41,349 nt of DNA from a virus: positions 1-41,349 of IMG/VR virus record IMGVR_UViG_3300020377_000013. One strand, given 5' to 3'. The first letter of the stretch is position 1. Each line of letters opens with the position of its first letter. Below are positions 13,187-36,700 of the stretch, piece by piece. The position numbers were made by a program, and so were the translations under genes. The notes below the pieces were generated by a model. It saw only the letters and a list, made by a program, of their open reading frames with translations, made no database searches and was not told where the DNA came from.

Positions 13187-13194
13187 TATAAATA
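13187..13194 (+). promoter_or_regulatory. T4-type late promoter upstream of small fibre-like gene and gp8
   Basis: This exact TATAAATA lies in the 42-base intergenic gap, followed by AGGAA (13209-13213) and the ATG at 13220. The position is like that of the boxes before gp48 and gp25. Confidence 0.72.
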
Positions 13195-20795: not shown

Positions 20796-20995
20796 TGGAA
20801 TATAAAAAAGTTGAAGGCCTACACGGTTTAGTAAAAAATGAGAATGGTGTTGTCCTTAACACCAATGAAGAAGAAGTTAGAGCCGCGCGGGCACGGAAGC
20901 GAGCACAAAGAAAAAAAGCACGAGAGTTTGAAGATCTAAAACAAGATGTTAGTGATCTTAAAAGACTGATGGAACAGATTATTGAGAGAATGTAA
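20795..20995 (+). CDS. Small conserved protein with C-terminal coiled coil
   Basis: This 66-residue protein has an N-terminal part VEGLHGLVKNENGVVLNTNE, a strongly basic middle (ARARKRAQRKKAREFE, about 30-45) and a heptad-like end EDLKQDVSDLKRLMEQII consistent with a coiled coil. It is real rather than a spurious small frame: TAATG junctions on both sides, and a pattern I recall as a conserved small protein next to structural genes in marine T4-like phages. The role is unknown. A coiled-coil connector or assembly factor for a neighbouring fibre is a reasonable guess, but nothing in the sequence proves it. Confidence 0.6.
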   Translation: MEYKKVEGLHGLVKNENGVVLNTNEEEVRAARARKRAQRKKAREFEDLKQDVSDLKRLMEQIIERM

Positions 20996-21726
20996 TGTCA
21001 CGTAAGATTACTGTCCAAAAAACAAATACACTTAATGTCTGGCATCAGAAGACTAATACTATGTCAGGTTATGTAGGTGACTTAGATAATTTGGACCCGT
21101 ATTTTCAAGCACCTTTTGGATTCTCTACACCTCAAGATTCGAATATAGTTGATGCTGTTGGAACTATTGGAGGTAAACTTGATAAAATAGAATGTTATTT
21201 GTATGAACCCGTACTACCACATGATTCAGATAAATGTATCATTGGAAAGATAACAGCAAACCTAGGTGTAGACTCAGGTTATATACAAAAGCTTGACGTA
21301 CAGCAACTATGGAATTATGATTCTGCATTAGTAGGACCTCGTAATCCAGACAGCGATTATACATTCTACGGTGACTCACCTGGCACAGCCGATTTTGATT
21401 TTAATGCAGATAGTGTACATATAAAACGTTTATATGTTCCTAATGCAGATTTCATTGATAGTGCACAGATTTATAAAATATTAACAGTACACGAATGGAC
21501 AATGGATTCTGGTGATGACACCGGGTTTAATGCTGGCAAAGCAACCTTTAATGAGTATGTCAATATAAATACGTTACATATGGATAGTCAATCGGTCCAC
21601 ATTATAAGACCGTTTTATATTAATAGAAATGATGGGGTGAAAGCAAATGCATATTTTGGAGCGCATCTATTTGATTCAGAAGAAGGTCACATGGCTCTAG
21701 TAGATCCAGACTTCACACTGTCGTAA
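20995..21726 (+). CDS. Fibre-like structural protein (paralogue of the next gene)
   Basis: This 243-residue protein opens with MSRKITVQKTNTLNVWHQKT and NTMSGYVGDLDNLD, and the next gene opens in the same way (MARKIVVDF... NVMSDYIGDLDDLD). The middle and end hold several DSx-strand repeats (NADSVHIKRLYVPNADF, MDSQSVHIIRPFYINRN), as in beta-helical or beta-prism fibre shafts. The gene lies in a run of structural genes joined by TAATG junctions. It probably forms a short tail fibre or collar-like attachment. Function is inferred only from composition, paralogy and neighbours. Confidence 0.6.
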   Translation: MSRKITVQKTNTLNVWHQKTNTMSGYVGDLDNLDPYFQAPFGFSTPQDSNIVDAVGTIGGKLDKIECYLYEPVLPHDSDKCIIGKITANLGVDSGYIQKLDVQQLWNYDSALVGPRNPDSDYTFYGDSPGTADFDFNADSVHIKRLYVPNADFIDSAQIYKILTVHEWTMDSGDDTGFNAGKATFNEYVNINTLHMDSQSVHIIRPFYINRNDGVKANAYFGAHLFDSEEGHMALVDPDFTLS

Positions 21727-21736
21727 GGAAAAGTAA

Positions 21737-22306
21737 ATGGCACGTAAAATAGTAGTAGATTTCGTTGATGCGGTTGGTACATTCATGGCCAAAACAAATG
21801 TCATGTCTGACTATATCGGAGACCTTGACGACTTAGATTCAGAGTTTGCTCAAAACTTTGCAGACTCAAATGTAGTAAGTGCTCTTAATCATTTAGTTGG
21901 CATGATTGATTCAATTAATGATAGACTGTTTAGTGACTCTGATCACTGGCAATTAAGAGGATTAAAGGCTGACTCTGCAGATTTTAAAAGATTAAGAGTT
22001 GGTATGTTGCATGCTGACAGTGCAACTATAGATTCAGCAGAAATAAGAAACTTAACAGCTGAACATCTTACTATTGACAGTGCTACAATTCGAAGACTAG
22101 AAGTTGCAGAAGCAATAATTGATTCTGCTTACATTGATTCTGCTACGATAGATCATGCATATATCACTAACTTTCATTTCAATGATTCTGATGAAGTAGA
22201 AAAAGAATTAGATCACATGAAATTACTTACTATTAAGGAGGAAAGTGGTGGTGTTGTATTGGCTGGATATTTCATGTCAACAGACTCGGCAGCAGGTACA
22301 CCATAA
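21737..22306 (+). CDS. Fibre-like structural protein with DSA-type beta repeats
   Basis: This 189-residue paralogue of the preceding gene shares the GDLDxLD N-terminus. Residues about 78-150 are a run of strand repeats with the period of a beta-helix: ADSADFKRLRVGMLHADSAT, IDSAEIRNLTAEHLTIDSAT, IRRLEVAEAIIDSAYIDSAT. Each repeat has an Asp-Ser-Ala/Thr turn and a hydrophobic strand, which suggests a compact parallel helix or trimeric shaft. It has its own AAGGAAAAG ribosome binding site 11 bases after the upstream stop. It is likely a virion fibre or spacer. A small number of DSA turns reappear in the large fibres downstream. Confidence 0.6.
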   Translation: MARKIVVDFVDAVGTFMAKTNVMSDYIGDLDDLDSEFAQNFADSNVVSALNHLVGMIDSINDRLFSDSDHWQLRGLKADSADFKRLRVGMLHADSATIDSAEIRNLTAEHLTIDSATIRRLEVAEAIIDSAYIDSATIDHAYITNFHFNDSDEVEKELDHMKLLTIKEESGGVVLAGYFMSTDSAAGTP

Positions 22307-23358
22307 TGGCCGTAAGATTACCTTTATTAACGCAAGATGATGAAGCGATAAAAGAATGGACCAATGCCGATAGGGATCAGGTCTTCAAAAGAATCGCTTA
22401 TTGTTATGCAAACAATCCTTCAGTAGCTTTATCAGTTGTAGCTAGTAACGGAAACATTTCACCCGTTATGAATGATACACGCATGCAATCAGGTACAGCT
22501 CATACGTCAGTTGGTAACCAAAATACAACCAATGACGGTGATGCAGAATACGTGCAAGAATCCTCTACAGGAGAACCAACTTCAAGAACTGAAGCAACGT
22601 ATGATAAGATACACGAAACTACATCCAATCCAAATTTAAACTGGGGTCAAACATCTTATCCTGGTAATTTCGAAATTCCTTCTGGACCTAAGCCTGTTTA
22701 CTATGAAGGTAGAACTACTGGTAATCCTGGAACTAATGGTGGATATTCGATTAGGGAAATGGCATTTCAAGATATTTTAGATACATTTATTACTCCAGTT
22801 GTTACGCATATAGAAACTGGAAACGCAGGTGTATTTTGTGGTGGTGCATTTTTTATTAGTACAGCTACTACTCTCTCAAACTGTACTAACTTAGGTACTG
22901 TGTATACCGACACTATATCTGATGTAAATACATTTGACGCTGGTTCAATTGGAACATCTGGTACTGTACAGACTGGTATTGCTACAGGTGGTGTTGATTA
23001 TCAATTATTTAAAAATGACGGTGTTGAAGAAACATATCGTCTACCTCTGGTTATAGATTACACTTCGAATGGTGTAAATGATCCAGCCGGTTTAAGAGAG
23101 ATGACTCAAACAGAATTTCAAGCTTTCTTTTGTCCTTTAATAAGACAACAGATATATAATGGTACAGGCAATACATTACGTTATAATATAAATGGCAGCG
23201 GTACTACTAAAGGTTCTGCAATGACTGATACAAGATTAGATGGTTCAGGGACATGGAATAAAAGATTTGTTAATGCAAACGATTATAGATCACAAGAATT
23301 TCCTAATGGAACTAGACAAACGGTAGAAACTTGGACACTTAAAGTAGAGAGAACTTAA
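22306..23358 (+). CDS. Virion structural protein (conserved in marine T4-like phages)
   Basis: This 350-residue protein begins with MAVRLPLLTQDDEAIKEWTN and has a helical segment DRDQVFKRIAYCYANNPSVA (about 23-42). The middle is rich in Thr, Gly and Asn (about 60-150). A conserved-looking region SIREMAFQDILDTFITPVV (about 147-165) and GVFCGGAFFISTATTLS follow. The C-terminus is beta-rich and ends WTLKVERT. I recall this type as a structural protein next to fibre genes in cyanophages. No enzyme motif is visible. It is coupled to the DSA-repeat gene by a TAATG junction and is followed two bases later by the 156-residue gene. Confidence 0.6.
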   Translation: MAVRLPLLTQDDEAIKEWTNADRDQVFKRIAYCYANNPSVALSVVASNGNISPVMNDTRMQSGTAHTSVGNQNTTNDGDAEYVQESSTGEPTSRTEATYDKIHETTSNPNLNWGQTSYPGNFEIPSGPKPVYYEGRTTGNPGTNGGYSIREMAFQDILDTFITPVVTHIETGNAGVFCGGAFFISTATTLSNCTNLGTVYTDTISDVNTFDAGSIGTSGTVQTGIATGGVDYQLFKNDGVEETYRLPLVIDYTSNGVNDPAGLREMTQTEFQAFFCPLIRQQIYNGTGNTLRYNINGSGTTKGSAMTDTRLDGSGTWNKRFVNANDYRSQEFPNGTRQTVETWTLKVERT

Positions 23359-23359
23359 A

Positions 23360-23830
23360 ATGATTGAAGGACACGTTATAGTAGACGCATATTTTACTAA
23401 CGATAAAAGAACACATCTTCAAACCATGTGGCGTGAAGAAAGTACAGGTATTGTTAGGCCACATAATATTAATGTTGAAGAAGACCCTGATCAGTATAAT
23501 AAATTTTTATCTGAATATAACGTATCTGTAGATGATCTTCATGAACGAACATTTTTACGTATAAAAGAAATGCGTGAATCTTATGAGCAACAGATTATTA
23601 AAATTGCTAAAAGAGAAAAACTAATTGAAGATACAGAAAACCAAGATGCCTTCGATGTTTTTACAAATTATTTGTTTAGTAAAAACGCAGATAATGAATC
23701 ATTGTTTAAATTAAAACTTTTGATATTCGAACAAGAACATGTGAAGAATAGCGAAAATCGTGCCTTAAAAGGTAAATTACGAAAAGCCAAAACTATAACC
23801 GAGATTATAGCAAGATATAATGAATTCTAA
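23360..23830 (+). CDS. Conserved hypothetical protein, helical with basic C-terminus
   Basis: This 156-residue protein has a short beta-like N-terminus (IEGHVIVDAYFTNDKRTHLQ) followed by long helices with many charged residues. It contains ERTFLRIKEMRESYEQQIIK (about 64-83) and a basic ending LKGKLRKAKTITEIIARYNE. The ending FKLKLLIFEQEHVKNSENRA seems familiar from conserved small proteins near tail genes of marine T4-like phages. No catalytic motif or membrane segment is visible, so it is probably cytosolic, perhaps an assembly factor. It is the last gene before the enzyme cassette, only three bases from the first radical SAM gene, so it is unclear whether it belongs to the tail set or the cassette. 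Confidence 0.55.
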   Translation: MIEGHVIVDAYFTNDKRTHLQTMWREESTGIVRPHNINVEEDPDQYNKFLSEYNVSVDDLHERTFLRIKEMRESYEQQIIKIAKREKLIEDTENQDAFDVFTNYLFSKNADNESLFKLKLLIFEQEHVKNSENRALKGKLRKAKTITEIIARYNEF

Positions 23831-23833
23831 TAT

Positions 23834-24943
23834 ATGCTTTATGATATCCGTAAAAGGTTTCAATTCCATATTGAATTGACCGATGAATGTAATGCTAGAT
23901 GTCCTCAGTGTTCTAGAAATTGTATAGTAGATAATGTACTTAGCCCTAGGCCTGACTTAGCAAAGGCTGATATATCGTTTGACGAATATAAAGAAATCTT
24001 TAAAGATTTCAAATATCCTATCAAAAACTTAAACTTTTGTGGCAATTTCGGTGATCCCGTCTATGCTAAAGATATTTATGAAATCATAGAATATTCATGT
24101 ACTGATTTACTAGATAGAGGAAACGGACCGGGTAAAGAGTTTATATACATTCATACAAATGGTGGAATGAGAAAACCTGATTGGTGGGCTAAGTTCGGTG
24201 AAATGCTACATAAGCATTTACCTGATAATCACTTAGTTGTATTTTCAATTGATGGATTGGAAGATACTCATCATCTTTATAGAGTTAATACTCGTTATGA
24301 TAGAGTAGTTGAAAACGCTCGAGCTTTTATTAATGCAGGTGGATTGGCTGAATGGTCATTTATAAGATTTGGTCATAATGAGCATCAAGAAACTGAAGCT
24401 AGAAAAAGATCTAAGGAATACGGCTTTCAAAGTTTTATTCCAATTGATACACACAGGTTTTGGGGAAGAGAAAAACTAAAGTTTACATTTAATAAAAAAC
24501 CTTATGAAATTCTCAGATCATCGTCTAAAGCATCTAATAAAAAGAAAAAACAAGCTACTAACTATAGTGCAGACGTTGAAGGCGCACGAATAAAATCTAA
24601 AAACGAAATAGAATGTAGAGTTTCAAGTTCAACGGGTCGAAATGAGCTTTTTATAGATTGCTTAGGTGATATACATCCATGCTGTTGGATTGGTTCTTAT
24701 GAGTATAGAAAAAAACATTATACAAATGAAGTAGCAGATCCGCATGAAGTTACGCAGCATGAAATATTTAATATGAGAACAATTAGGAATGCTATTAAAG
24801 AAGATTTAAATCATATTATTGAAGATGATTTCTTTCAATATATACTGCCAATGAGTTTTGAAGTTTCGCCATGTAATATATGTGCAAAGCAATGTGGAAA
24901 AACTACAAACGTTAGAACTGATAAAGTGCGAGAAGTGTTATGA
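23834..24943 (+). CDS. Radical SAM enzyme with SPASM-type C-terminal cysteines
   Basis: This 369-residue enzyme has the radical SAM iron-sulphur motif CxxxCxxC at C19, C23 and C26 (TDECNARCPQC). A modified GGE region reads NFCGNFGDPVYA (about 71-82), and a barrel strand reads LVVFSIDGLEDTH (about 134-147). C-terminal cysteines at 261, 276, 283, 284, 347, 350 and 354 look like a SPASM/twitch domain holding auxiliary clusters. Such enzymes abstract hydrogen from peptides, sugars or small molecules to make epimers, cross-links or other changes; the substrate here is unknown. It opens the enzyme cassette with no obvious ribosome binding site or promoter, so it depends on upstream late transcription and translational coupling. 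Its stop overlaps the next start as ATGA. Confidence 0.85.
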   Translation: MLYDIRKRFQFHIELTDECNARCPQCSRNCIVDNVLSPRPDLAKADISFDEYKEIFKDFKYPIKNLNFCGNFGDPVYAKDIYEIIEYSCTDLLDRGNGPGKEFIYIHTNGGMRKPDWWAKFGEMLHKHLPDNHLVVFSIDGLEDTHHLYRVNTRYDRVVENARAFINAGGLAEWSFIRFGHNEHQETEARKRSKEYGFQSFIPIDTHRFWGREKLKFTFNKKPYEILRSSSKASNKKKKQATNYSADVEGARIKSKNEIECRVSSSTGRNELFIDCLGDIHPCCWIGSYEYRKKHYTNEVADPHEVTQHEIFNMRTIRNAIKEDLNHIIEDDFFQYILPMSFEVSPCNICAKQCGKTTNVRTDKVREVL

Positions 24944-25695
24944 TATACAGTAATCAATATGGTGAAGTAGACTTTTGGAATATTCCAGCTATCACAGAAG
25001 ATCCTGAACTTAGTCAAACAAAGAAAGTTGCTGTTACTCTTTCCGGCGGAGTAGACTCTGCATTTGTAATGTTTATGCTTTGTGAAAAAATAAAAGAATT
25101 AAATTTAGATTTACAAGTTCTACCATTTACTGGCGTGGATAAATTAAGGCCTACTAATGAATGGAATGCTAGAGAAATATTATTGTTATTTAAAGAAATG
25201 TTTCCAGAAGTTAATTTTTTAGATCACTATGTCTTTAAATATGATCATGAACCAAATAATACAAACATGAAAAGAAAACAACATGTATTGCATGAACGAA
25301 AGTTATATGCAGAACAAGACGTAAAACTTTGGTTATGTGGTAAATCTGCAAACCCTCCTACAGGCGAACACAAGAAAGATGATTTTTTAGTTACAGCCAG
25401 AGAAGTTGAAAGAGATACAAACTTAGGTGATCATTTTAAAATATTTACTCGCATACAACGTGATGGCGTATACAATAGATGGCTTTACAGACCGTTAGCA
25501 TTTATGCATAAAAAATTTATGGCAGAAGAATATAGAAAAAATAATCTGATGGAAGAACTATTTCCTTTGACTGCATCATGTATTGAGTACGCTGAAAAAA
25601 CTAATAACTTTCTAGGACCATGTAAAAAATGTTGGTGGTGTAAAGAAAAGAAATGGGCTTTTGGTTGTTACGATGGTGGGGCTGTAGATGACTAA
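24940..25695 (+). CDS. PP-loop ATP pyrophosphatase, QueC-like zinc site
   Basis: This 251-residue enzyme has the N-type PP-loop SGGVDS (residues 35-40), which activates a carbonyl or carboxylate with ATP to release pyrophosphate. The C-terminal cysteines C214, C228, C231 and C234 (GPCKKCWWCKEKK, then WAFG) have the spacing and place of the zinc site of QueC, the preQ0 synthase. The rest of the protein is not clearly QueC and no other queuosine gene is in this window, so I call only a QueC-like ATP-dependent amide or thio-forming enzyme. Asparagine-synthase-like amidotransfer to a sugar is the other plausible reading. It is translationally coupled to both radical SAM genes (ATGA before, 8-base overlap after). 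Confidence 0.8.
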   Translation: MIYSNQYGEVDFWNIPAITEDPELSQTKKVAVTLSGGVDSAFVMFMLCEKIKELNLDLQVLPFTGVDKLRPTNEWNAREILLLFKEMFPEVNFLDHYVFKYDHEPNNTNMKRKQHVLHERKLYAEQDVKLWLCGKSANPPTGEHKKDDFLVTAREVERDTNLGDHFKIFTRIQRDGVYNRWLYRPLAFMHKKFMAEEYRKNNLMEELFPLTASCIEYAEKTNNFLGPCKKCWWCKEKKWAFGCYDGGAVDD

Positions 25696-26923
25696 CTTTC
25701 TTTGCTCTATGCCTTTTATTCAGTTTTCTACTACAGTAGAAGGCCTTTATCAGGCATGTTGTATAGCAAAGGCTGAAGGTAATATGAATTTTGAAAATAC
25801 TTCTCCTATGGAGTTTTTTAATTCGGACCATATGAAACAGATACGCCATGACATGGTTACAGGAAACAAGTCGGATTTATTGAAAAGAACCTGTCAGGCA
25901 TGTATCAATCAAGAAAAAAGCTATGGTGTATCTAAACGAGTTGATTCGTTAAATCATTATATCCATGGAGAACTATTAACGGATGAGTTGATAGAAAGCG
26001 TAAGAGAAAATCCGGATATAGATTTAAAACCTTCAGACATAGATCATGTTAAAATGAAAGTGTTTGGTAATATATGTAACTTAAGATGCACAATGTGTCA
26101 CCCAGTATGTTCATCTAAATTGGCAGCAGAATTTAAAAGATATGGTAAGTGGGATGGACCAACACTTTTAAATTCATACAATAAAATAGATAAAGATAAA
26201 TTGTATGCTGACTTAGAAGTTATATGTCCTGTGCTTAGAGAGTTCGAGATTGTAGGAGGTGAACCTCTTATGATGGATCAGGCAATTGAAATGGTAGAAT
26301 GGATTGTTGAAAAAGGATATGCTGAGGATATGGAATTTAGAATTATCACGAATGCAACAATTGATAATTTTGATTTCTATAGATTAATGAAATATTTTAA
26401 GAAAGCTACCTTCTTAGTTTCACTAGATGCTGTTGGAAAAAAAGAAGAGTACATTAGGACTGGAACTATATGGGAAGAAAAGGTAGAAGTCTTAAGAAAC
26501 ACATTACGTGCTGGAATTAAAATTGGTTGGTCAAGCACAATCCAAATGTTAAATATAGGATACTTAAATGATATCCACAACTTTGCATTATCTCTAATTG
26601 AAGAATTTCCTAGAAAAACAAATATGATTGAAACTCCGTATCTAAATAATTTATTAAGTCGACCAGCCGCGTTGAATGCTATGAACTTACCAAAGGATAT
26701 AAGAGAACAATATATAAACAAGTATAAGTCTTTAGATTATGACTTTCACCATAAAGATAGATTTATAAAAAATTTAGAAGAAGCCAATCCTAATCCGGAT
26801 TATATTTACAAGGCTATGTCACATTATAAATTTTTTGATGAAAAAAGAGGAACTTGCTTATTAGATGAGTACCCAGAATTTGAAAATTATTACAGCGCTG
26901 TGGGGCCAAAAATACTCTACTGA
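25688..26923 (+). CDS. Twitch-domain radical SAM protein
   Basis: This 411-residue enzyme has an N-terminal cysteine-rich part (FLCSMPFIQF, YQACCIA, then TCQACINQE with C69 and C72) before the radical SAM motif CNLRCTMC (C130, C134, C137). The GGE motif VGGEPLMM and a LVSLDAVG strand follow. This order, an auxiliary-cluster twitch region ahead of the barrel, fits the family of twitch-domain radical SAM proteins, seen in bacterial surface-glycan loci. The substrate is unknown. It differs from the first radical SAM enzyme of the cassette, whose extra cysteines follow the core. The gene overlaps the PP-loop gene by eight bases and the next glycosyltransferase by 59 bases. Confidence 0.85.
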   Translation: MTNFLCSMPFIQFSTTVEGLYQACCIAKAEGNMNFENTSPMEFFNSDHMKQIRHDMVTGNKSDLLKRTCQACINQEKSYGVSKRVDSLNHYIHGELLTDELIESVRENPDIDLKPSDIDHVKMKVFGNICNLRCTMCHPVCSSKLAAEFKRYGKWDGPTLLNSYNKIDKDKLYADLEVICPVLREFEIVGGEPLMMDQAIEMVEWIVEKGYAEDMEFRIITNATIDNFDFYRLMKYFKKATFLVSLDAVGKKEEYIRTGTIWEEKVEVLRNTLRAGIKIGWSSTIQMLNIGYLNDIHNFALSLIEEFPRKTNMIETPYLNNLLSRPAALNAMNLPKDIREQYINKYKSLDYDFHHKDRFIKNLEEANPNPDYIYKAMSHYKFFDEKRGTCLLDEYPEFENYYSAVGPKILY

Positions 26924-27485
26924 CGACGTAAAAAAATTACCTATAGACATTGTATTTAGCGACAGAGAAGTGCCAGGAATAGAAACGCGTCCTATCAATA
27001 TGTCGTATAAAGGTACATGGAAAAAAATGACTTTGTTCGATAGTCGTTTAGATTTAGGTGACTGTTTATTTTTAGACTTAGATATTATATTACAAAAACC
27101 TTTACGCTTGTATAGACTCATTGATTATTACTATGAGAATAAAGAAAAGTCGAAGGTAATGTTAACGCATGTACATTGGTTTGACAATAAACCAATGGAA
27201 AGAAATAAATCAACTTACATTAGCTGTAATGTCAATTCCTCTGTATTTGCTTTTAATAATGCAGAATGCAATCATATATATGAAGAGTTAGTAAAGTTTA
27301 AACCAAAATTAGAAATGTTGTTCGAAGGTACAGACAAGTGGTTTTATCATAAACACAAAGATTGGTATAACTTTTTTCCAGATAAAATGATACAGCATAA
27401 CATACATAACTTTAAAAACTACGAAAAAGATAAAGCGATTATTATATCTGAAAATGGAAACGCAAATGGAAGAAATAAAGTATAG
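26865..27485 (+). CDS. DxD glycosyltransferase-like protein 1 of the cassette
   Basis: This 206-residue protein begins with a strand of the GT-A type (KIITALWGQKYSTDDVKKL) and has a metal-binding LDLDIIL motif with D71xD73. A basic FKNYEKDK end is present, but the fold is short (usual GT-A enzymes are 250 or more). The first 20 residues align with the starts of three later genes (TKYTYEDV, NKYPVEYV, EKYGQEYE), showing a paralogous set. It likely transfers a sugar from a nucleotide sugar; donor and acceptor are unknown. The start lies 59 bases inside the upstream gene, and a TTG at 26880 would give a shorter product. Confidence 0.72.
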   Translation: MSTQNLKIITALWGQKYSTDDVKKLPIDIVFSDREVPGIETRPINMSYKGTWKKMTLFDSRLDLGDCLFLDLDIILQKPLRLYRLIDYYYENKEKSKVMLTHVHWFDNKPMERNKSTYISCNVNSSVFAFNNAECNHIYEELVKFKPKLEMLFEGTDKWFYHKHKDWYNFFPDKMIQHNIHNFKNYEKDKAIIISENGNANGRNKV

Positions 27486-28137
27486 CTACGATATAGGAAA
27501 ATTTGCCGATATATTAAATCGTGTAATTTTTAGAGATTATCCACACCGAGCAAAAGACTTTGTTGAAAGTTTTATTAGCAATCAAATAAATTGTAAGATT
27601 TGGCTAGTCACGGAATTAAAAAATATTTTAGAAAGAAAAGGTATAACTGCCAAAAGAATAACAATAATGGGATGTTGGTATGGTAACATCATGGCACCAT
27701 TACTATTAGATAATATTGAAGGCTTAGAACAAATTGACTTAATTGACATGGATGAAGATGCACTACTTATTGGTAGAAAGTTTTTACAGAAAAGAATGGA
27801 TGACGGTAAAGTTAAAATTAATTTTATGACAAAGGATGTTAACTTCGATGAGTTCGATGATTTCTATACGCAAGTAGTAATAAACACTAGCTGCGAACAT
27901 ATGTATCCTATGTCATCGGTTATTTTTCGAAATGATAAAGACGTTATATATTGTCTACAGTCAAACGATATGCATGAGATTAGAGAACATGTTAACTGTG
28001 TTAGTTCTCCTGAAGAACTTGCTCAACAATCTGCAATCGAAAAAATTTATTACAGAGGAGTACACGAACATAAAGCTGCTATAGATCTTAAAAGAGAAAC
28101 CTATAATAGGTTTATGGTGATTGGGAAAAGAGCATGA
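27454..28137 (+). CDS. SAM-dependent methyltransferase-like protein
   Basis: This 227-residue protein has a class I methyltransferase core: strand and glycine turn ITIMGCWYGNIMAPLLLD (about 69-86, with the GxxxG motif I at G73 and G77), the acidic strand end IDLIDMDEDAL (about 94-104, D98 or D100 binding the ribose), and VVINTSCEHM (about 146-155) in the motif IV place. The substrate may be a sugar, lipid or protein; no further domain points to one. The start is uncertain: an ATG at 27466 (MEEIKYS) has GGAA just upstream and may be the true one. It sits between glycosyltransferases, and its stop is in an ATGA overlap with the next. Confidence 0.72.
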   Translation: METQMEEIKYSYDIGKFADILNRVIFRDYPHRAKDFVESFISNQINCKIWLVTELKNILERKGITAKRITIMGCWYGNIMAPLLLDNIEGLEQIDLIDMDEDALLIGRKFLQKRMDDGKVKINFMTKDVNFDEFDDFYTQVVINTSCEHMYPMSSVIFRNDKDVIYCLQSNDMHEIREHVNCVSSPEELAQQSAIEKIYYRGVHEHKAAIDLKRETYNRFMVIGKRA

Positions 28138-28841
28138 TTATTTGTACTGTATTAACTGGAACAAAATATACTTATGAAGATGTTAACAAATTATATCATG
28201 GACTAAAGAATAACACTACGATTGATTTTGATTTTTTATGTTACACAGATGCTGTTGGCGATTTTGACTCAGAAATTGTATTAAAAGCAATAGAAAATAA
28301 TGATAAAAAGTTACAATGGTTTAAACTAGATTTTTTTAAAAAAGATTTTGTTGAGCACGAAGATATAATCGTAATGGATATTGATTTAGATATCGTAGGA
28401 AATGTTGATTTCTTATTCGATGATTATGAAGGATTTGTAGGATCACACCGATGGTGGTGGCGATGGAGAGAAGATAAAGCAACTAATCCATTTGCACTTT
28501 CTGGCACTGTTTATAAATTTAAAAATGGAGAACATCAAATAGTAGTTGATACTTTTGAAAAAGATATAAAACATTGGGAAGAATACTTTATAAAGAATGG
28601 AACAACAAAAGGTCCAGTTAATGGTGAACAACATTTTGTTCAAAAGGTATTAGTAGATAATAATATTCCTTGCAGTTACTTTCCGGAAAAGCATATTATA
28701 AAATGGCATAAAGATGATTTTGCTACTCAATTAAAACTTGAGAAAGATTATCAAAAGTGGACTGGCAATCTATATATTGACTATATGGCTGAAGAAGATT
28801 GGCATCCTGATATTAGGATAATACACTATGCAGGAAGTTAA
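28134..28841 (+). CDS. DxD glycosyltransferase-like protein 2
   Basis: This 235-residue protein is a paralogue of the last cassette gene. The metal-binding motif is VMDIDLDIVGN (D82, D84, D86). Shared blocks with the fourth glycosyltransferase are KNGTTKGPVNGEQHFV and HPDIRIIHYAGS, so the two are related by duplication. The GT-A fold is suggested by the opening strand IICTVLTGTKYTYEDVNKL. The role is probably sugar transfer; the acceptor is not shown by sequence. It is coupled to the methyltransferase by an ATGA junction and overlaps the next gene by 14 bases. Confidence 0.75.
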   Translation: MIICTVLTGTKYTYEDVNKLYHGLKNNTTIDFDFLCYTDAVGDFDSEIVLKAIENNDKKLQWFKLDFFKKDFVEHEDIIVMDIDLDIVGNVDFLFDDYEGFVGSHRWWWRWREDKATNPFALSGTVYKFKNGEHQIVVDTFEKDIKHWEEYFIKNGTTKGPVNGEQHFVQKVLVDNNIPCSYFPEKHIIKWHKDDFATQLKLEKDYQKWTGNLYIDYMAEEDWHPDIRIIHYAGS

Positions 28842-29457
28842 AGTATTTTGTGTTAATGTAGGAAACAAATATCCAGTAGAATACGTATTTAAATTAAAGG
28901 CTGCGGTTGCTAGACACTTATCAGCTGACCATTCTTTTTACGTATATACAGATAATCCACACCTTTATGATTTTTCAATAAAGGCAGATCATGATTTAGA
29001 AATATGGTGGAATAAGTTACTAATATTTGAGAACACAGGTCCATGTCTTTATTTTGATTTAGATGTAATCATACATAATTCAATTGATACACTTGTAAAA
29101 GATAGTTTCCATATGGTCAATCCATCTTGGAAAGATCCTAAGAGAGCAAAAATACTAACCGATAGACCAGATTTAGGAACAGCATTTACTAACTCATCCG
29201 TAATGTCTTGGACTGATAGTAGAAACATACTAGAGCATTTTTTAAAAGATCCTGAAATGTATATGTTTAAGTATGGAGGTGATGATAGATATTTACACCA
29301 TGAACATAATTATGATTTATTTCAAGAAGGCATGGTTTATTCTTATCGCAATAATAATTTTAAAATTAAAAATGATTTTGCTGTTGCACTTTTCCACCAA
29401 GAGCCTGAAATACATGACTGCTTAGATCATGATATTGTAAAGGATAATTGGATATGA
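28828..29457 (+). CDS. DxD glycosyltransferase-like protein 3
   Basis: This 209-residue protein has the opening strand VKVFCVNVGNKYPVEYVFKL and the acidic motif YFDLDVIIHNS (D77xD79) of GT-A enzymes. A further motif, DLGTAFTNSSVMSW, replaces the GPVNGEQ block of its paralogues, so it is a more distant member with a different acceptor site. His-rich stretches (YLHHEHNYDL) follow. It overlaps its upstream neighbour by 14 bases and ends in ATGA with the next start. It probably extends or branches the same glycan as its neighbours, but that is inferred from adjacency only. Confidence 0.72.
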   Translation: MQEVKVFCVNVGNKYPVEYVFKLKAAVARHLSADHSFYVYTDNPHLYDFSIKADHDLEIWWNKLLIFENTGPCLYFDLDVIIHNSIDTLVKDSFHMVNPSWKDPKRAKILTDRPDLGTAFTNSSVMSWTDSRNILEHFLKDPEMYMFKYGGDDRYLHHEHNYDLFQEGMVYSYRNNNFKIKNDFAVALFHQEPEIHDCLDHDIVKDNWI

Positions 29458-30134
29458 AAATCTTTTGTGTTCGTATAGGAGAAAAATACGGACAGGAATA
29501 TGAAACATATATCAATGAAAAATTATCTAGATATGATATAACATGGATCAGAGAACCATTTGATTCTAGGATAAAACTTCAATGGAATAAAATGTATGCT
29601 ATGTCTTTAGACATAGATGAACCGGTATGTGTTATTGATATTGATTTATTACTAGTAAATAACTATTTACATTTATTCGAATATGTGATACAACGTGGAG
29701 AGTTCTTATCCATACCTGCATGGTGGAAGGATAGTCCTGGATATTCTATAAACGGTGGATTCTTTAAATATTATCCTAAAGACTGTAATTACATATATGA
29801 AAAATTTATGTCAGATCCAGAATACTGGCAAGAATATTATATAAAGAATGAGACAACTGTAGGACCAGTTAATGGCGAACAATACTTTGTAGAAGATTCT
29901 GTAAAGGAAAGACTTAATTTAAAAACTGTTCCTATGTCTTGGGTTGCTAGATGGTCGACCGGTTATAATATGACAGAAGCTCAATATTCAAAATGGCAAT
30001 ACGAAATTAACCAAGAATACGCAGATATTACTGGAAACGATTATTTGTATTTAGATAAATTCCATCCAGATATAAAATTAATTCATTTTACTCACTCTCA
30101 GAACAAGCCTACAGATTGGAAGTATTATAAATAA
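29454..30134 (+). CDS. DxD glycosyltransferase-like protein 4
   Basis: I place the start at the ATG at 29454 (MKIFCVRIGEKY), which overlaps the upstream stop as ATGA and has AAGGA about nine bases before. A TTG at 29448 would add two residues. The 226-residue protein has IDIDLLL (D62xD64) as metal-binding motif, and shares TVGPVNGEQYFVED and FHPDIKLIHFTHS with glycosyltransferase 2. Aromatic-rich stretches such as PAWWKDSPG suggest a sugar-binding face. It is the last gene of the cassette; the late promoter for the fibre genes overlaps its stop codon. Confidence 0.75.
   Translation: MKIFCVRIGEKYGQEYETYINEKLSRYDITWIREPFDSRIKLQWNKMYAMSLDIDEPVCVIDIDLLLVNNYLHLFEYVIQRGEFLSIPAWWKDSPGYSINGGFFKYYPKDCNYIYEKFMSDPEYWQEYYIKNETTVGPVNGEQYFVEDSVKERLNLKTVPMSWVARWSTGYNMTEAQYSKWQYEINQEYADITGNDYLYLDKFHPDIKLIHFTHSQNKPTDWKYYK
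30126..30133 (+). promoter_or_regulatory. T4-type late promoter for the tail-fibre block
   Basis: This exact TATAAATA lies across the stop of the last glycosyltransferase gene. It separates the enzyme cassette from the fibre block and would drive the genes from 30179 onward. AAGGAA follows at 30136-30140, close to where transcription would begin. Confidence 0.68.
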
Positions 30135-30178
30135 AAGGAAATAGAGTATGATCGAGTTACTTAGTATCGGATTGGGAT

Positions 30179-30523
30179 ATGGCAGAATACGAGAAGTTTA
30201 CGTTCGACATAGGTTCGGACATTGCAGTACAGCTAGAGCTAGTAGACCTTAGCGGTAATCCAAAAGATTTAAACAACTATTCTGCTGCAGCAAAGATGAA
30301 GCGGAACTACAATTCCGATTCTGCAGATACCACAGATTTTTCTGTTGCTATTACGCCGAATGAGGGTATCGTAACTCTTTCCTTGACAAACCAACAAACA
30401 AACGCACTTCGTGTAGGAAACTATGTTTATGATGTGGAGATCTCTTTCGTTGATTCAAACGGATCAACTGTAGTAGAGAGAATCCTTGAAGGAAAGATAC
30501 GCGCTAACCCATCGGTGACATAA
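30179..30523 (+). CDS. Small tail/baseplate protein with BppU-like N-terminal pattern
   Basis: This 114-residue protein starts FTFDIGSDIAVQLELVDLSG and then DLNNYSAAAKMKRNY (about 31-45), followed by TLSLTNQQTNALRVGNYVYD and a strand VVERILEGKIRANPSVT. This pattern of a short beta-sandwich is common to small tail proteins beside fibres in marine phages, and recalls the N-terminal domain of baseplate upper proteins. It probably serves as an adaptor or decoration at the fibre base. Its ATG has only a weak ribosome binding site. A stronger AAGGAA lies 38-43 bases upstream and fits an earlier out-of-frame ATG at 30148. It ends in a TAATG junction with the next gene. Confidence 0.6.
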   Translation: MAEYEKFTFDIGSDIAVQLELVDLSGNPKDLNNYSAAAKMKRNYNSDSADTTDFSVAITPNEGIVTLSLTNQQTNALRVGNYVYDVEISFVDSNGSTVVERILEGKIRANPSVT

Positions 30524-33700: not shown

Positions 33701-33797
33701 GGAACCAGATTCACCACCAGCAGGTTACAGTGCAGAGACATATAATTTATATGGAATTGTTTTGCAACCTGGAAACACATATGTGAGTATTAGCTAA
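30744..33797 (+). CDS. Long tail fibre protein, 1017 residues
   Basis: This large modular fibre has an N-terminal domain with KTSAGTPTLVGKEGLNILKI and a GDRLFIGIGP segment (about 41-50), likely for attachment. Beta-rich shaft modules follow: NISIDGNTISTTDPDGN and VKIDGNTISTTSGDLVIDP (a repeated unit), DPVQAQDAATKNYVDTRD, and VDGTTTTINSTELTVNDKNL. Residues about 338-418 hold three copies of a LYYTxARxDSDFxxR unit. The C-terminal part (about 600-1017) contains Ser/Thr-rich Ig-like stretches and ends in NLYGIVLQPGNTYVSIS. The role is host-surface binding. TAATG junctions tie it to the next, larger fibre. Confidence 0.78.
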   Translation: MGNVFRIKTSAGTPTLVGKEGLNILKIGEFGYSYVDGDSAGGDRLFIGIGPQKSNGYASEYVTIGGQYFVEMLDHPEGKLHPSSAIITDANNKIDKILIDNISIDGNTISTTDPDGNIILDPNGSGFIDASTSIISNVVDPVQAQDAATKNYVDTRDVAFGNADDNVSGDGNIPMGGEIQVSGDFNTNTKRVDLANGVKIKVNLDSNVSGLASLEVDNVKIDGNTISTTSGDLVIDPTPAGGAGKVTIQGDLQVDGTTTTINSTELTVNDKNLILADNATSGVEADSAGITIGGALAQIIYKNTLDIWLFNRKVQAPNIKLETSDGTPGTIEGRYAGFDSDFSEKTTDSLNEGDINLYYTQARFDSDFGTRTTADIPEGTNLYYTTARSDSDFDARLALKSTTDLAEGSNLYYTVQRVRDVLSVKDAGGDGSFAYDSATGQFTYTGPSASEIRAHLSASGAIQYDSSTGQFSLSQDAVYSSARADSDARHALSAAGDLSYDPNTGVFSFDVEQVYTKANFDSDLDEALASGTGITYDASTNTINITNTGVTAGTYGSASEVPVFRVNAQGQLDSAGTVTVAGVSATSIDSSTGDFTINTADGGAFTSRLYDANILNNDGNKAGITWTVGGATAQYRTATNFIDSDLEVYTIREMNFTGNKLRIEVAQFSPGLTATGQSNLNFDQKATQFSVAVDNPIDFDTRFINSVSSIAQTNAYVGTTLANYNAGAKSQTPAGGVDWTQTFTFDSASGAAVRDNSTTISGGTSIGEITFADDQGADFATTASFTTTWKTPNVSVSMSNLSGNQFLETYTSTSYNVSVSGMSSSSNITHTVTGTGGSISSSNGSGTITFTNPIHKDNGGGRQVAVSTEFRRPPGVATTSYSVTDTASDITLNASFSYPTLTIFTAGAGTPPTRADVVNGDQFESAVTELSNQTKNFTGTVNNPDSVPKCFWFMVRSAANQPSTFQTGASSSLLSDVGTTNTTLDLEPDSPPAGYSAETYNLYGIVLQPGNTYVSIS

Positions 33798-36700
33798 TGG
33801 CAGACTATAACGGACTTACGAGAAACGCATGGCCAGGAACATGGAGTCCTAGCTCTAATCATCCTATAGTATTAGACACAGAGATGCGCGGTGGTTTACG
33901 CTACGTCAGTGGTGATTCCGGCGATAGAGTATCAGACATTACTGGACAAAGATTACAAGACGGTATGTTAATCTATGTCAAGAAAGCTCATGAAGGTTTT
34001 GAAGCTGAACAGTATTATAGTTTTAAACTCCAATCAGGTCAATATAGAGATAGTTCTACTGGTGAATTACCTAATGCTTCTAACAATTGGGAAGAGTTTA
34101 GGCCAAAGGTTGACTCAGCTACTACAACAAATCTTATTGATAGCGCATACATTCAGGCTCGTCAAAACGATTCGGCTGAGACTGCTACAAATGCGTATAG
34201 ACTAAATGGGCAATCAGGTAATTATTATAGAGAATGGGCTAATACATTAAATCCACCTGCCATTTTAGATAATGTTGATGTTTCTAATATTATTACAACT
34301 GATGTTGACAAAGCTTTTGTTGATGCTTTAAATGTTGATGCCGATACACTTGACGGATTACATAAACAAGATTATATTAATCTTATCGATTCTGCAGTTA
34401 ATGCTTTAGTTGATGGAGCACCTGGTGCTTTAGATACATTAAATGAACTTGCTGCTGCACTGAACGATGACAGCGATGCTTATAATACTTTATTGGCGCA
34501 AATTGCTGCACTACCTGATTCTTCTCAAGTTCAATTAATTACAGAAACACAAGTTGATTCTGCTTATGTGCAGGCCAGACAAGACTTTGCGTATTCATCT
34601 TTAACAGGCGCACCAACTAATGTATCGACTTTTACAAACGATGCCAATTATCTGGATTCTACTACAGCACAAACATTAATTGATGCTACATATATTCAAC
34701 AGAATCAAAGTAACATAGACTCTAGCTTAGTATCAGGTCTTGTAGATTCCGCTTATGTACAAGCGAGACAGGATTTTGCTTATGGTTCATTAACTGGTGT
34801 ACCTACGAATGTATCGACTTTTACAAATGACGCTAATTATTTAGATTCCACAACCGTACAAGGTGTCGTTGATCAGTCTTATGTTACAGGTTTAATAGAC
34901 GCAACTTACTTAGATTCTGCCGAAGTCATTGCTCTTATTGATAGTGACCATGTTCGTAACAGAGCCACATTTGGATTGGCAGGTAACACTGGTTCACATA
35001 CATTTAGACCTGATACAGAGACACTAACATTTTTAGGAACTACTGGTCAAATTAATGCAGGTATTGCTGCAAATAATGTTACTCTAGAATTAGACCAGAA
35101 CATTAACAGTATTACCAGTATTGCTTTTGAAGGCGGGTCAAACAATAATAATGAAACAAAAATTCAGGCGATTGATCCTACAAAAGATAACACAATAAAT
35201 CTTCCGGATTCAAGTGGTACAGTTGCATTAGTTGAAACAATTGATTCAGCTTTCGTTCAAGCAAGAACTCCACAAATCGACCTTAGTGCAGTTGATCAGC
35301 ATATTATACCAGCTACAGGAACTCTATATGACTTAGGTGATTCAAATCATTTCTGGCGAGATCTATATCTTTCAGGTAGTACTTTAGTTCTTGGAGATTT
35401 AAAACTACAACAACACTCAGGTAATTTTAGATTTACAAATAGACACAATGGCAATGAAGTAAAAGTTGTAGCTGATAATGTTAGTCCACATTTAATCGAT
35501 TCATCAGTTATTACATCTCTTTCCAGTGCCTTAGATATATCTACATTTACAAATGATGCAAACTATTTAGACTCTAACACAGTTAAAGAAGTTATTGATT
35601 CCACATATATTGCCGCAGCTATTGAAACAGACAGTAATATCACAGTTACCATTATTAATAATGTTACAGATACAGTTGACTCTGCTTATGTTCTTGGAAG
35701 AGTTGCTGCAGCTCCATTCTTAGATTCTGCAGATGCAATACAATTAATTGATAGTACATATGTACAAGCAAGGCAAGACTTTGCATATGGTTCATTAACT
35801 GGAGTACCGACCACTGTTTCATCATTTACAAATGATGCCAATTATCTAGACTCAACTACTGTCTTACCTTTACTTCCAAAATTTGGTGCTGACTTTGTTG
35901 ATTCTGCAACAGTCTTAGATATTATTAATTCTGCAGGATTGGATTCAGATTTAGTTATAGCTCTTGTTGACTCTGCATATATCCAACTAAGAGATCGATT
36001 TCAAGATTCATCATTAGTTACATCAACTGTAGATGCTACATACGTACAATCAAGACAGATAACATATAATACATCTGACTTTTTAGACTCTGGTACAGTA
36101 TCATTAGTAGTTGATAGTGCATATGTTCTTGCAAGATCTCCGGCTGGAGTCGACTCGGCATCAGTTACAGCAATCATCGACTCAGCTTATATTGCAGCTA
36201 GAGTTAGTGGTGCAGATTCTGCAGAGATAGCTACAAACGCATATAGATTTAATAATGAAGCTCCATCATATTATTTAGATTATAATAATTTAAGTAATAA
36301 ACCAAGTATACCAACTATTGATAAAACATATGTTGATAACTTAAATGTAGATGCCGATACATTAGATAATCAAGATGGAAGTTACTATTTAAACTATAAT
36401 AATTTAAACAACAAACCTACAGTACTAACATCTACTGACGTTAAAAATATATTTAATTCAAGCGGTGATGATGAAATTAGTACTGGTGCAGTTGTTGATG
36501 CAAAGTATATTGAGTTTAAACATGATGGTGGAACACAGCACGAATTTACAGTTGAGGTTGTTTCTAAAACAAGCGCTCACAGGTATCAAGGTTCTGGTTC
36601 CTCTAATGGTTATCAAATTGACGGAGTGGAATCTCCATTCTTACAATTTGTTCCAGGTAACACTTATAGATTTCTACAAAATAATGGTACAAATAGTAGC

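Follow-up and report, generated by a model that had tools for sequence, protein, structure and literature searches.

An exchangeable cassette of eight genes, which occupies a slot of constant position flanked by tail genes in marine T4-like phages (Kyanoviridae), is tentatively read as making a small modified group, most likely a methylated and otherwise modified sugar, and attaching it to a virion protein in the infected cell. The cassette was analysed in a viral DNA of 41,349 nt (IMG/VR record IMGVR_UViG_3300020377_000013; the window), which had no close match at the DNA level in phage records. Its eight ORFs, 23834-30134, all lie on the + strand, with consecutive overlaps of 4, 8, 59, 32, 4, 14 and 10 bases. 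ORF, profile and fold data confirmed the gene set proposed in a sequence-only reading: two radical SAM enzymes, one QueC-like PP-loop ligase, a class I methyltransferase fold and four GT8-like glycosyltransferases, encoded on one strand with overlaps of 4-59 bases. The placement of the block among tail genes was likewise borne out, with baseplate and VrlC-like genes upstream and fibre and L-shaped-fibre-assembly-like genes downstream.

23834..24943, + strand: gene 1, radical SAM enzyme; CxxxCxxC at C19/C23/C26, Cys-rich SPASM/twitch-like C-terminal region
24940..25695, + strand: gene 2, QueC-like PP-loop ATPase; SGGVDS loop, C-terminal Zn-type site C214...C228xxC231WWC234
25688..26923, + strand: gene 3, radical SAM enzyme with N-terminal twitch domain (NF033640); CxxxCxxC at C130/C134/C137
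26865..27485, + strand: gene 4, GT8-like glycosyltransferase; DxD motif, phrog_1962 at 3.5e-5
27454..28137, + strand: gene 5, predicted class I SAM methyltransferase fold; GxWxG and NTSCEH motifs conserved in the alignment
28134..28841, + strand: gene 6, GT8-like glycosyltransferase; phrog_1962 at 1.7e-9
28828..29457, + strand: gene 7, GT8-like glycosyltransferase; phrog_1962 at 6.8e-5
29448..30134, + strand: gene 8, GT8-like glycosyltransferase; grouped with genes 4, 6 and 7 by profile and alignment

Genes 1 and 3 both carry the PF04055 domain (E 6.5e-9 and 2.8e-11) together with CxxxCxxC, as expected of the radical SAM superfamily. A SPASM match to gene 1 was weak (0.044, Pfam), while gene 3 matched NF033640 over its full length at 276 bits (curated cut-off 170). 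Relatives of gene 1 adjoin the PP-loop gene in one locus (L125) and lie upstream of it in another (L003), and the gene 3 family and the PP-loop form one fused protein in L040. The Pfam match of gene 2 to PP-loop/QueC was weak (0.0034); the PHROG QueC-like family was matched by 56 of 64 members of the gene 2 family. For the AF2 model of gene 2 (pLDDT 91) the best PDB fold match was Cap9 bound to its modified protein substrate, at E 3e-5 and with a TM of 0.69 when scaled to the length of the target but 0.52 when scaled to that of the query.

Sequence comparison places the gene 2 PP-loop in an undescribed, mainly viral QueC-like family of more than 100 members. With the QueC superfamily PF06508 (canonical QueC, QatC and Cap9; PMC13329287, PMC13279940) it shares the SGGxDS phosphate loop (64/64 members) and a C-terminal C(x)nCxxCxxC zinc-type site (63/64, with a spacing of 6-20 against 8 in canonical QueC). 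It differs in its CWWC signature, in being almost confined to viruses and in lacking the canonical substrate motifs, since YxQxHxxE, VPxRN and YPDC (motif set from PMC13329287) each occurred in 0/64 members. The family is also absent from the clusters described in the available part of the QueC superfamily survey (PMC13329287, PMC13279940). Gene 2 had no match in phage records, and searches with three different members as queries recovered no cultured phage with this PP-loop. Family members often adjoin arrays of radical SAM genes, on viral contigs of 84-275 kb with 13-18 radical SAM domains, and in other phages stand alone near replication genes. A single old pairing event was rejected, and the pairing is considered loose, because the PP-loop tree needs at least 19 changes. 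Membership of a defence system was also rejected: PADLOC gave weak generic radical SAM matches (pVip, 2e-7) and a QueC match at 0.026, and no match to the Cap9/QatC partners (CD-NTase, QatA/B/D) among genes 1-8, T350 and s156.

Genes 4, 6, 7 and 8 each pulled up one identical set of glycosyltransferases in profile searches and each carries DxD. The first three match phrog_1962 ('glycosyltransferase'); gene 8 had no library match and joins them through the family profile. They differ from phrog_1962 in being four diverged copies in one cassette, with relatives that have in-frame PP-loop or methyltransferase fusions. Gene 8 is listed with a TTG start; an ATG at 29454 is possible. Gene 5 had no family match in the libraries and is classed as a class I SAM methyltransferase by its predicted Rossmann methyltransferase fold (model pLDDT 84.5), the best fold matches being BioC, a carbamoyl N-methyltransferase and O-methyltransferases at E about 1e-7.

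The cassette was compared across 57 relatives with a readable slot, and its content proved variable. The glycosyltransferase family was present in 54, the methyltransferase family in 52, radical SAM genes in 47 and the PP-loop in 5. The slot and the tail protein family before it are bounded as follows.

22306..23358, + strand: T350, tail protein family (306-350 aa), candidate acceptor, gained and lost with the cassette
23360..23830, + strand: s156, short gene of the tail operon that immediately precedes the cassette and marks the left edge of the slot
30154..30169, + strand: conserved right slot junction, GAGTTACTTAGTATCG
30179..30523, + strand: L-shaped tail fibre assembly-like gene, right slot border; phrog_1084 at 1.7e-21, phrog_3304 at 1.2e-13

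A homologue of the right border gene occupies the same position in relatives, and GAGTTACTTAGTATCG is exact in 10 other slot loci, copies of the same virus aside. The s156 gene, which had no family match in the profile libraries, adjoins the slot in nearly all relatives and occurs also in 6 cassette-less loci, and is thus not cassette-specific; its homology to the C48C1 tail-fibre assembly chaperone was not supported. Natural fusions of four kinds were found (L040, G006/L020, L028 and L231), joining PP-loop and radical SAM in both orders, PP-loop and glycosyltransferase, and glycosyltransferase and methyltransferase. Because of these fusions and the fixed slot, the cassette genes are taken to form one pathway. 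Sister cassettes hold sugar genes (DegT/EryC1 aminotransferase, NodU carbamoyltransferase, GT8), and in some relatives an NAD-dependent sugar epimerase lies beside T350 inside the tail operon; together with the glycosyltransferases, the epimerase, aminotransferase and carbamoyltransferase make a modified sugar the most likely product.

The candidate acceptor was identified from 43 VrlC-anchored loci, in which T350 and the cassette were both present in 14 and both absent in 26, with the cassette alone in 3 and T350 alone in none (Fisher p 9e-9). The VrlC tree forces at least 7 changes of the joint state. Cultured phages follow the same pattern, Mosig having T350 and the cassette while HTVC008M and C48C1 have neither. 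Exceptions are L317, with a PP-loop/glycosyltransferase/radical SAM cassette and no T350, and L266 and L268, with radical SAM genes and no T350. Since it is gained and lost together with the cassette, T350 is the best acceptor candidate; nearness alone is the weaker account, because s156 sits between the two and yet has a looser tie to the cassette. The earlier proposal of a modified sugar attached to fibres or tail proteins therefore stands in three respects, namely one pathway, a sugar as most likely product and a tail protein, now a specific one (22306-23358), as best acceptor candidate.

Late expression with the fibres, a further part of that proposal, was not supported in the form given, as position is no sufficient basis for it. 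Two T4-type late promoter boxes bear on the block.

13187..13194, + strand: closest exact late box in an intergenic position ahead of the tail operon, which continues into the cassette
30126..30133, + strand: exact late box, TATAAATA, serving the downstream fibre genes

The box said to close the block is present at 30126, ending one base short of the end of gene 8 and 46 bases before the next gene. Exact late boxes in the window are not above chance in number (6 observed, 7.8 expected); however, 4 of the 6 fall in non-coding DNA, which makes up 2% of the window, and one lies at the end of gene 8, so their positions are not random. The block has no other exact + strand late box, and sigma-70-like matches there do not exceed chance expectation, in agreement with the reported lack of an internal promoter. 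In the window the cassette thus lies on the tail-gene strand without a promoter of its own, whereas in 39 of the 57 relatives and in Mosig it is inverted and points the opposite way to the tail genes, so late co-transcription is not a general rule. As proof of late timing, late boxes ahead of inverted cassettes were considered and set aside, being too few and the start codons unsure.

Under the proposed tail decoration, the GT8-like enzymes would glycosylate the acceptor with nucleotide-sugars of the host or the phage as donors, and the two radical SAM enzymes may carry out C-H chemistry on a sugar or peptide. The QueC-like enzyme would adenylate a carboxylate to give an amide, by analogy with Cap9, its nearest relative in fold, which couples a carboxylate to an amine on a protein, and the methyltransferase may cap the group. 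The acceptor would be T350 or its fibre, modified while still unassembled in the cytoplasm; candidate purposes are stability, receptor specificity and a way around receptor loss. Cytoplasmic decoration is expected to need few membrane proteins, and by hydropathy a candidate membrane segment was found in just 13 of 513 slot ORFs, with genes 1-8 all at or below the threshold. Against tail decoration, the T350/cassette association could be physical co-transfer of neighbours, the timing of the inverted cassettes may not match tail synthesis, and co-variation would also be expected between a receptor-binding protein and enzymes that change the receptor it binds. Lipooligosaccharide, moreover, is the substrate of soluble GT8 enzymes such as LgtC.

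The main rival, somewhat unlikely in our judgement, is that the glycosyltransferases and tailoring enzymes remodel host lipooligosaccharide, or another glycan assembled in the cytoplasm, and so keep sibling or competing phages from binding the infected cell, T350 being the receptor-binding protein whose receptor is masked. It predicts the same co-variation of tail protein and cassette, inverted cassettes would permit expression independent of the tail genes, the glycosyltransferases weakly resemble GT8 enzymes including LgtC by profile, and O-antigens are commonly tailored by carbamoyl-, methyl- and aminotransferases. However, the slot lies within the tail operon, where some cassettes face the same way as the tail genes, and the membrane flippase or integral membrane transferase of O-antigen seroconversion has little counterpart here, given the scarcity of membrane segments and with no flippase or polymerase seen among the slot ORFs. 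To our knowledge, radical SAM and QueC-like enzymes are also atypical of seroconversion loci.

Host-surface change is nonetheless the published interpretation of pelagimyophage host recognition islands, which hold GT8 glycosyltransferases and 'cassettes related to radical SAM' in the part of that account available (PMC7029224). Our cassette belongs with these islands in phage group (HTVC008M-like phages; Mosig EXVC030M, MT647606) and in genome place, beyond VrlC between tail genes and with glycosyltransferases. The Mosig slot has homologues of T350, which by its position is QOI69061.1, and of genes 1, 5 and 6, the gene 6 relative being 32% identical over the whole protein. Unlike the window, Mosig lacks the PP-loop, and HTVC008M, from the same host strain as Mosig, lacks both cassette and T350. 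The available part of PMC7029224 reports no tie of the cluster to a particular tail protein. Campylobacter phages CP220 and CPt10 encode 11-12 radical SAM proteins and an interchangeable five-gene radical SAM module, for which no function was given (PMC2853527). One protein there is weakly matched by gene 1, and amidinotransferase-like proteins like theirs are found also near the PP-loop in L128 and L015, but CP220 and CPt10 lack the gene 2 PP-loop family. The statement that no described phage system has this gene set was therefore too strong, both islands and module being in print, without a function and without this PP-loop family.

Quite unlikely is direct peptide modification, in which the tail protein itself is the substrate of the SPASM/twitch radical SAM enzymes and the QueC-like ligase (giving cross-links, epimerised residues or Cap9-like N-terminal conjugation) and the glycosyltransferases glycosylate the result. 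SPASM enzymes frequently modify peptides, the closest fold of gene 2 is Cap9 with a protein substrate, and such PP-loops are accompanied by up to 18 radical SAM domains in other phages. Yet no precursor-like small peptide was found, the near-universal slot genes are the glycosyltransferase and methyltransferase families rather than radical SAM enzymes or the PP-loop, and the PP-loop elsewhere occurs alone near replication genes. There is a slim chance that the slot is a recombination hot spot for unrelated metabolic genes that share no substrate, with T350 travelling by proximity. Such cargo would fit a slot whose gene content changes often while the flanking genes and the right junction sequence are conserved, but the same glycosyltransferase and methyltransferase families fill more than 90% of readable slots, the cassette families are fused in four ways, and s156 is tied less tightly than T350. 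It is highly improbable that the cassette modifies nucleic acids, by a 7-deazaguanine or other pathway in which gene 2 serves as QueC and a radical SAM enzyme as QueE, and this reading was rejected, for although the PP-loop adjoins radical SAM genes and viral QueC-family members make modified bases, the QueC motifs are absent, QueD was found in 1 and FolE in 5 of 20 viral records with PP-loop or slot and neither in the slot phages tested, and the PP-loop is fused to a glycosyltransferase.

Tail decoration may be taken further, to a doubtful but specific proposal that a tail adhesin is modified by a group made by radical SAM and QueC-like enzymes and is exchanged together with them as one unit between marine T4-like phages; the up to 18 radical SAM domains arrayed with the same PP-loop family in larger viruses would then be elaborated versions of this chemistry. 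Such cassettes occur in phages that infect some of the ocean's most abundant bacteria, and the linkage to T350 turns the question of what glycosyltransferase/radical SAM islands do into a direct test on one virion protein. The viral QueC-like family, which pairs with radical SAM arrays and had no member in the cultured phage records searched, offers a large store of enzyme chemistry to explore. Asp-Ser dipeptides are enriched in the fibres of the window (z 7-11); since the enrichment is missing from the fibres of G015 and G006, it was rejected as a modification motif and is not tied to the cassette. In favour of tail decoration, the distant T4-like phage G006 has a radical SAM array that follows its tail fibre genes on the same strand, with a few genes in between.

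The eight open reading frames of the cassette are as the sequence-only reading had described them, overlapping by 4, 8, 59, 32, 4, 14 and 10 bases.

Genes of the cassette, by position in the window
23834-24943, + strand: gene 1, radical SAM (PF04055, 6.5e-9)
24940-25695, + strand: gene 2, PP-loop protein
25688-26923, + strand: gene 3, radical SAM (PF04055, 2.8e-11; full-length NF033640 twitch-domain match, 276 bits against a cut-off of 170)
26865-27485, + strand: gene 4, glycosyltransferase
27454-28137, + strand: gene 5, predicted class I methyltransferase fold
28134-28841, + strand: gene 6, glycosyltransferase
28828-29457, + strand: gene 7, glycosyltransferase
29448-30134, + strand: gene 8, glycosyltransferase

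All four glycosyltransferases pull out one same family, and genes 4, 6 and 7 match the PHROGs glycosyltransferase phrog_1962. Gene 5 gave no family match; its assignment is predicted from a structural model (pLDDT 84.5). A second contig carries sequence near-identical to the window, itself a 41-kb IMG/VR fragment.

Using T350, the tail protein gene upstream (22306-23358), as an anchor, 465 viral relatives were found and 80 kept; those reaching more than 3 kb past T350, 57 in all, were scored. The glycosyltransferase family occupied 54 of these slots, the gene-5 family 52, radical SAM 47 and the PP-loop 5; the constant core is therefore glycosyltransferase plus methyltransferase, with radical SAM usual and the PP-loop optional. 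GT8-like proteins, NodU carbamoyltransferase, DegT/EryC1 aminotransferase, nitroreductase, TauD dioxygenase and a GDSL-like hydrolase also occur in the slot, and in many of the 57 relatives the cassette has s156, a small gene (23360-23830), on one side and the 114-aa gene at 30179 on the other.

The association of T350 with the cassette was assessed with an independent second anchor, the C-terminal portion of the VrlC-like gene, in 43 loci that extend 5 kb or more downstream. T350 and cassette genes were both present in 14/43 and both absent in 26/43, cassette genes stood without T350 in 3/43 (two holding radical SAM alone), and T350 without cassette genes in 0/43 (Fisher p 9e-9). On the anchor-protein tree this joint state requires nine changes, at least seven of them forced by well-supported branches, and kinship is therefore not the sole cause of the link; physical co-transfer is a possible source. 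The rule holds in cultured phages, T350 accompanying the cassette in Mosig EXVC030M whereas both are absent from HTVC008M, which has the same host strain, and from C48C1. Locus L317 is an exception, and s156, which lies between T350 and the cassette, is present in six cassette-less loci. On the contig of locus L028 the T350 position is taken by a 371-aa protein (L146:15203-16315:-) that has LQEM modules and extended YTG/YAG repeats, possibly a T350 that has diverged and carries another acceptor repeat. Asp-Ser dipeptides are strongly over-represented in tail and fibre proteins of the window (20995-21726, 11 against 1.8 expected; 21737-22306, 12 against 2.2; 33797-39418, 53 against 15).

Membership of the cassette enzymes in one pathway is supported by single-frame fusions, whose domain boundaries were scored, and by gene order. 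In L040 a 744-aa open frame fuses a PP-loop to a twitch radical SAM, and in G006 one of 830 aa fuses a radical SAM to a PP-loop; the 471-aa frame of L028 unites PP-loop and glycosyltransferase, and the 455-aa frame of L231 glycosyltransferase and methyltransferase. The contig L125, assigned by binning to a Flavobacteriaceae MAG yet phage-like in gene content, carries in this order genes for a T350-like protein, a sugar epimerase, an s156-like protein, a twitch radical SAM, a further radical SAM and a PP-loop.

We tentatively suggest that the cassette modifies a virion tail protein through cytoplasmic sugar chemistry. The glycosyltransferases favour sugar chemistry, as do the epimerase, the aminotransferase and the carbamoyltransferase found in sister cassettes; the near-absence of membrane segments favours a soluble cytoplasmic pathway, and the T350 link a virion protein as target. 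Gene 2 may have a carboxylate-amide role, by analogy with its fold relatives. That the enzymes instead modify the host surface is somewhat less probable, but keeps weight because a receptor-binding protein would likewise vary together with enzymes altering its receptor.

The late box TATAAATA at 30126 is an exact match; it is the only exact + strand late box within the block and lies at its very end. Late boxes in the window total no more than chance, and their positions are non-random (4/6 in non-coding DNA, which makes up 2% of the window). The cassette runs antiparallel to the tail genes in 39/57 scored loci and parallel in 18/57, so the earlier argument for late expression from tail-operon location falls away. 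The sequence GAGTTACTTAGNATCG (30154-30169), which lies between the late box and the gene at 30179, recurs exactly in 10 further slot loci, with an anchor-protein identity of only about 40-55%; it is possibly a recombination anchor or leader element.

A scan of viral DNA for CxxCWWCxE matched at least 120 stretches, among which at least 106 open reading frames were PP-loops connected by blastp. SGGxDS and CxxCWWCxE are kept in 64/64 aligned members, canonical QueC motifs were found in 0/64, and the best fold match is Cap9. Among the matches listed, radical SAM genes accompany the PP-loop in 68/109 viral loci, with up to nine in under 15 kb; the pairing switches often on the PP-loop tree. Seven viral contigs of 84-275 kb (holding L008, L050, L064, L021, L007, L020 and L051) each carry 13-18 radical SAM domains, mostly arrayed with one to three CWWC PP-loops; in those examined, NodU and large proteins resembling GTs or GT-methyltransferases lie nearby. 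In G006 about six genes separate the array from tail fibre genes that lie upstream of it on the same strand. Stand-alone CWWC PP-loops adjoin what we take to be ribonucleotide reductase in L018, L023, L027, L030, L036, L053, L077 and L080, and presumably DNA polymerase-like or UvsX/gp32-like genes in other lineages. Near the PP-loops of L015 and L128 are presumed amidinotransferase-like proteins; a glycine amidinotransferase likewise belongs to the radical SAM module of Campylobacter phages.

The sequence-only reading knew of no described phage system with exactly these genes, which is too strong as a claim of novelty. The island type with glycosyltransferases, and radical SAM cassettes varying between phages, are already noted for pelagimyophages (PMC7029224), and a module with many radical SAM proteins is described in Campylobacter phages (PMC2853527); no phage paper combining radical SAM with PP-loop and glycosyltransferase was found in the open-access literature (subscription papers lay outside this scope). 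What appears to be new is the link to T350, the fusions and the viral family of QueC-like proteins. A scan of 84,980 species genomes with one short pattern found only 15 PP-loop loci, a lower bound; several of these are phage-like and several come from Bdellovibrionia MAGs. Loci L133-L136, from Bdellovibrionia and related MAGs (some contigs 350-940 kb), look cellular and chromosomal, combine the PP-loop family with several radical SAM genes, and are possibly a cellular version of the system.
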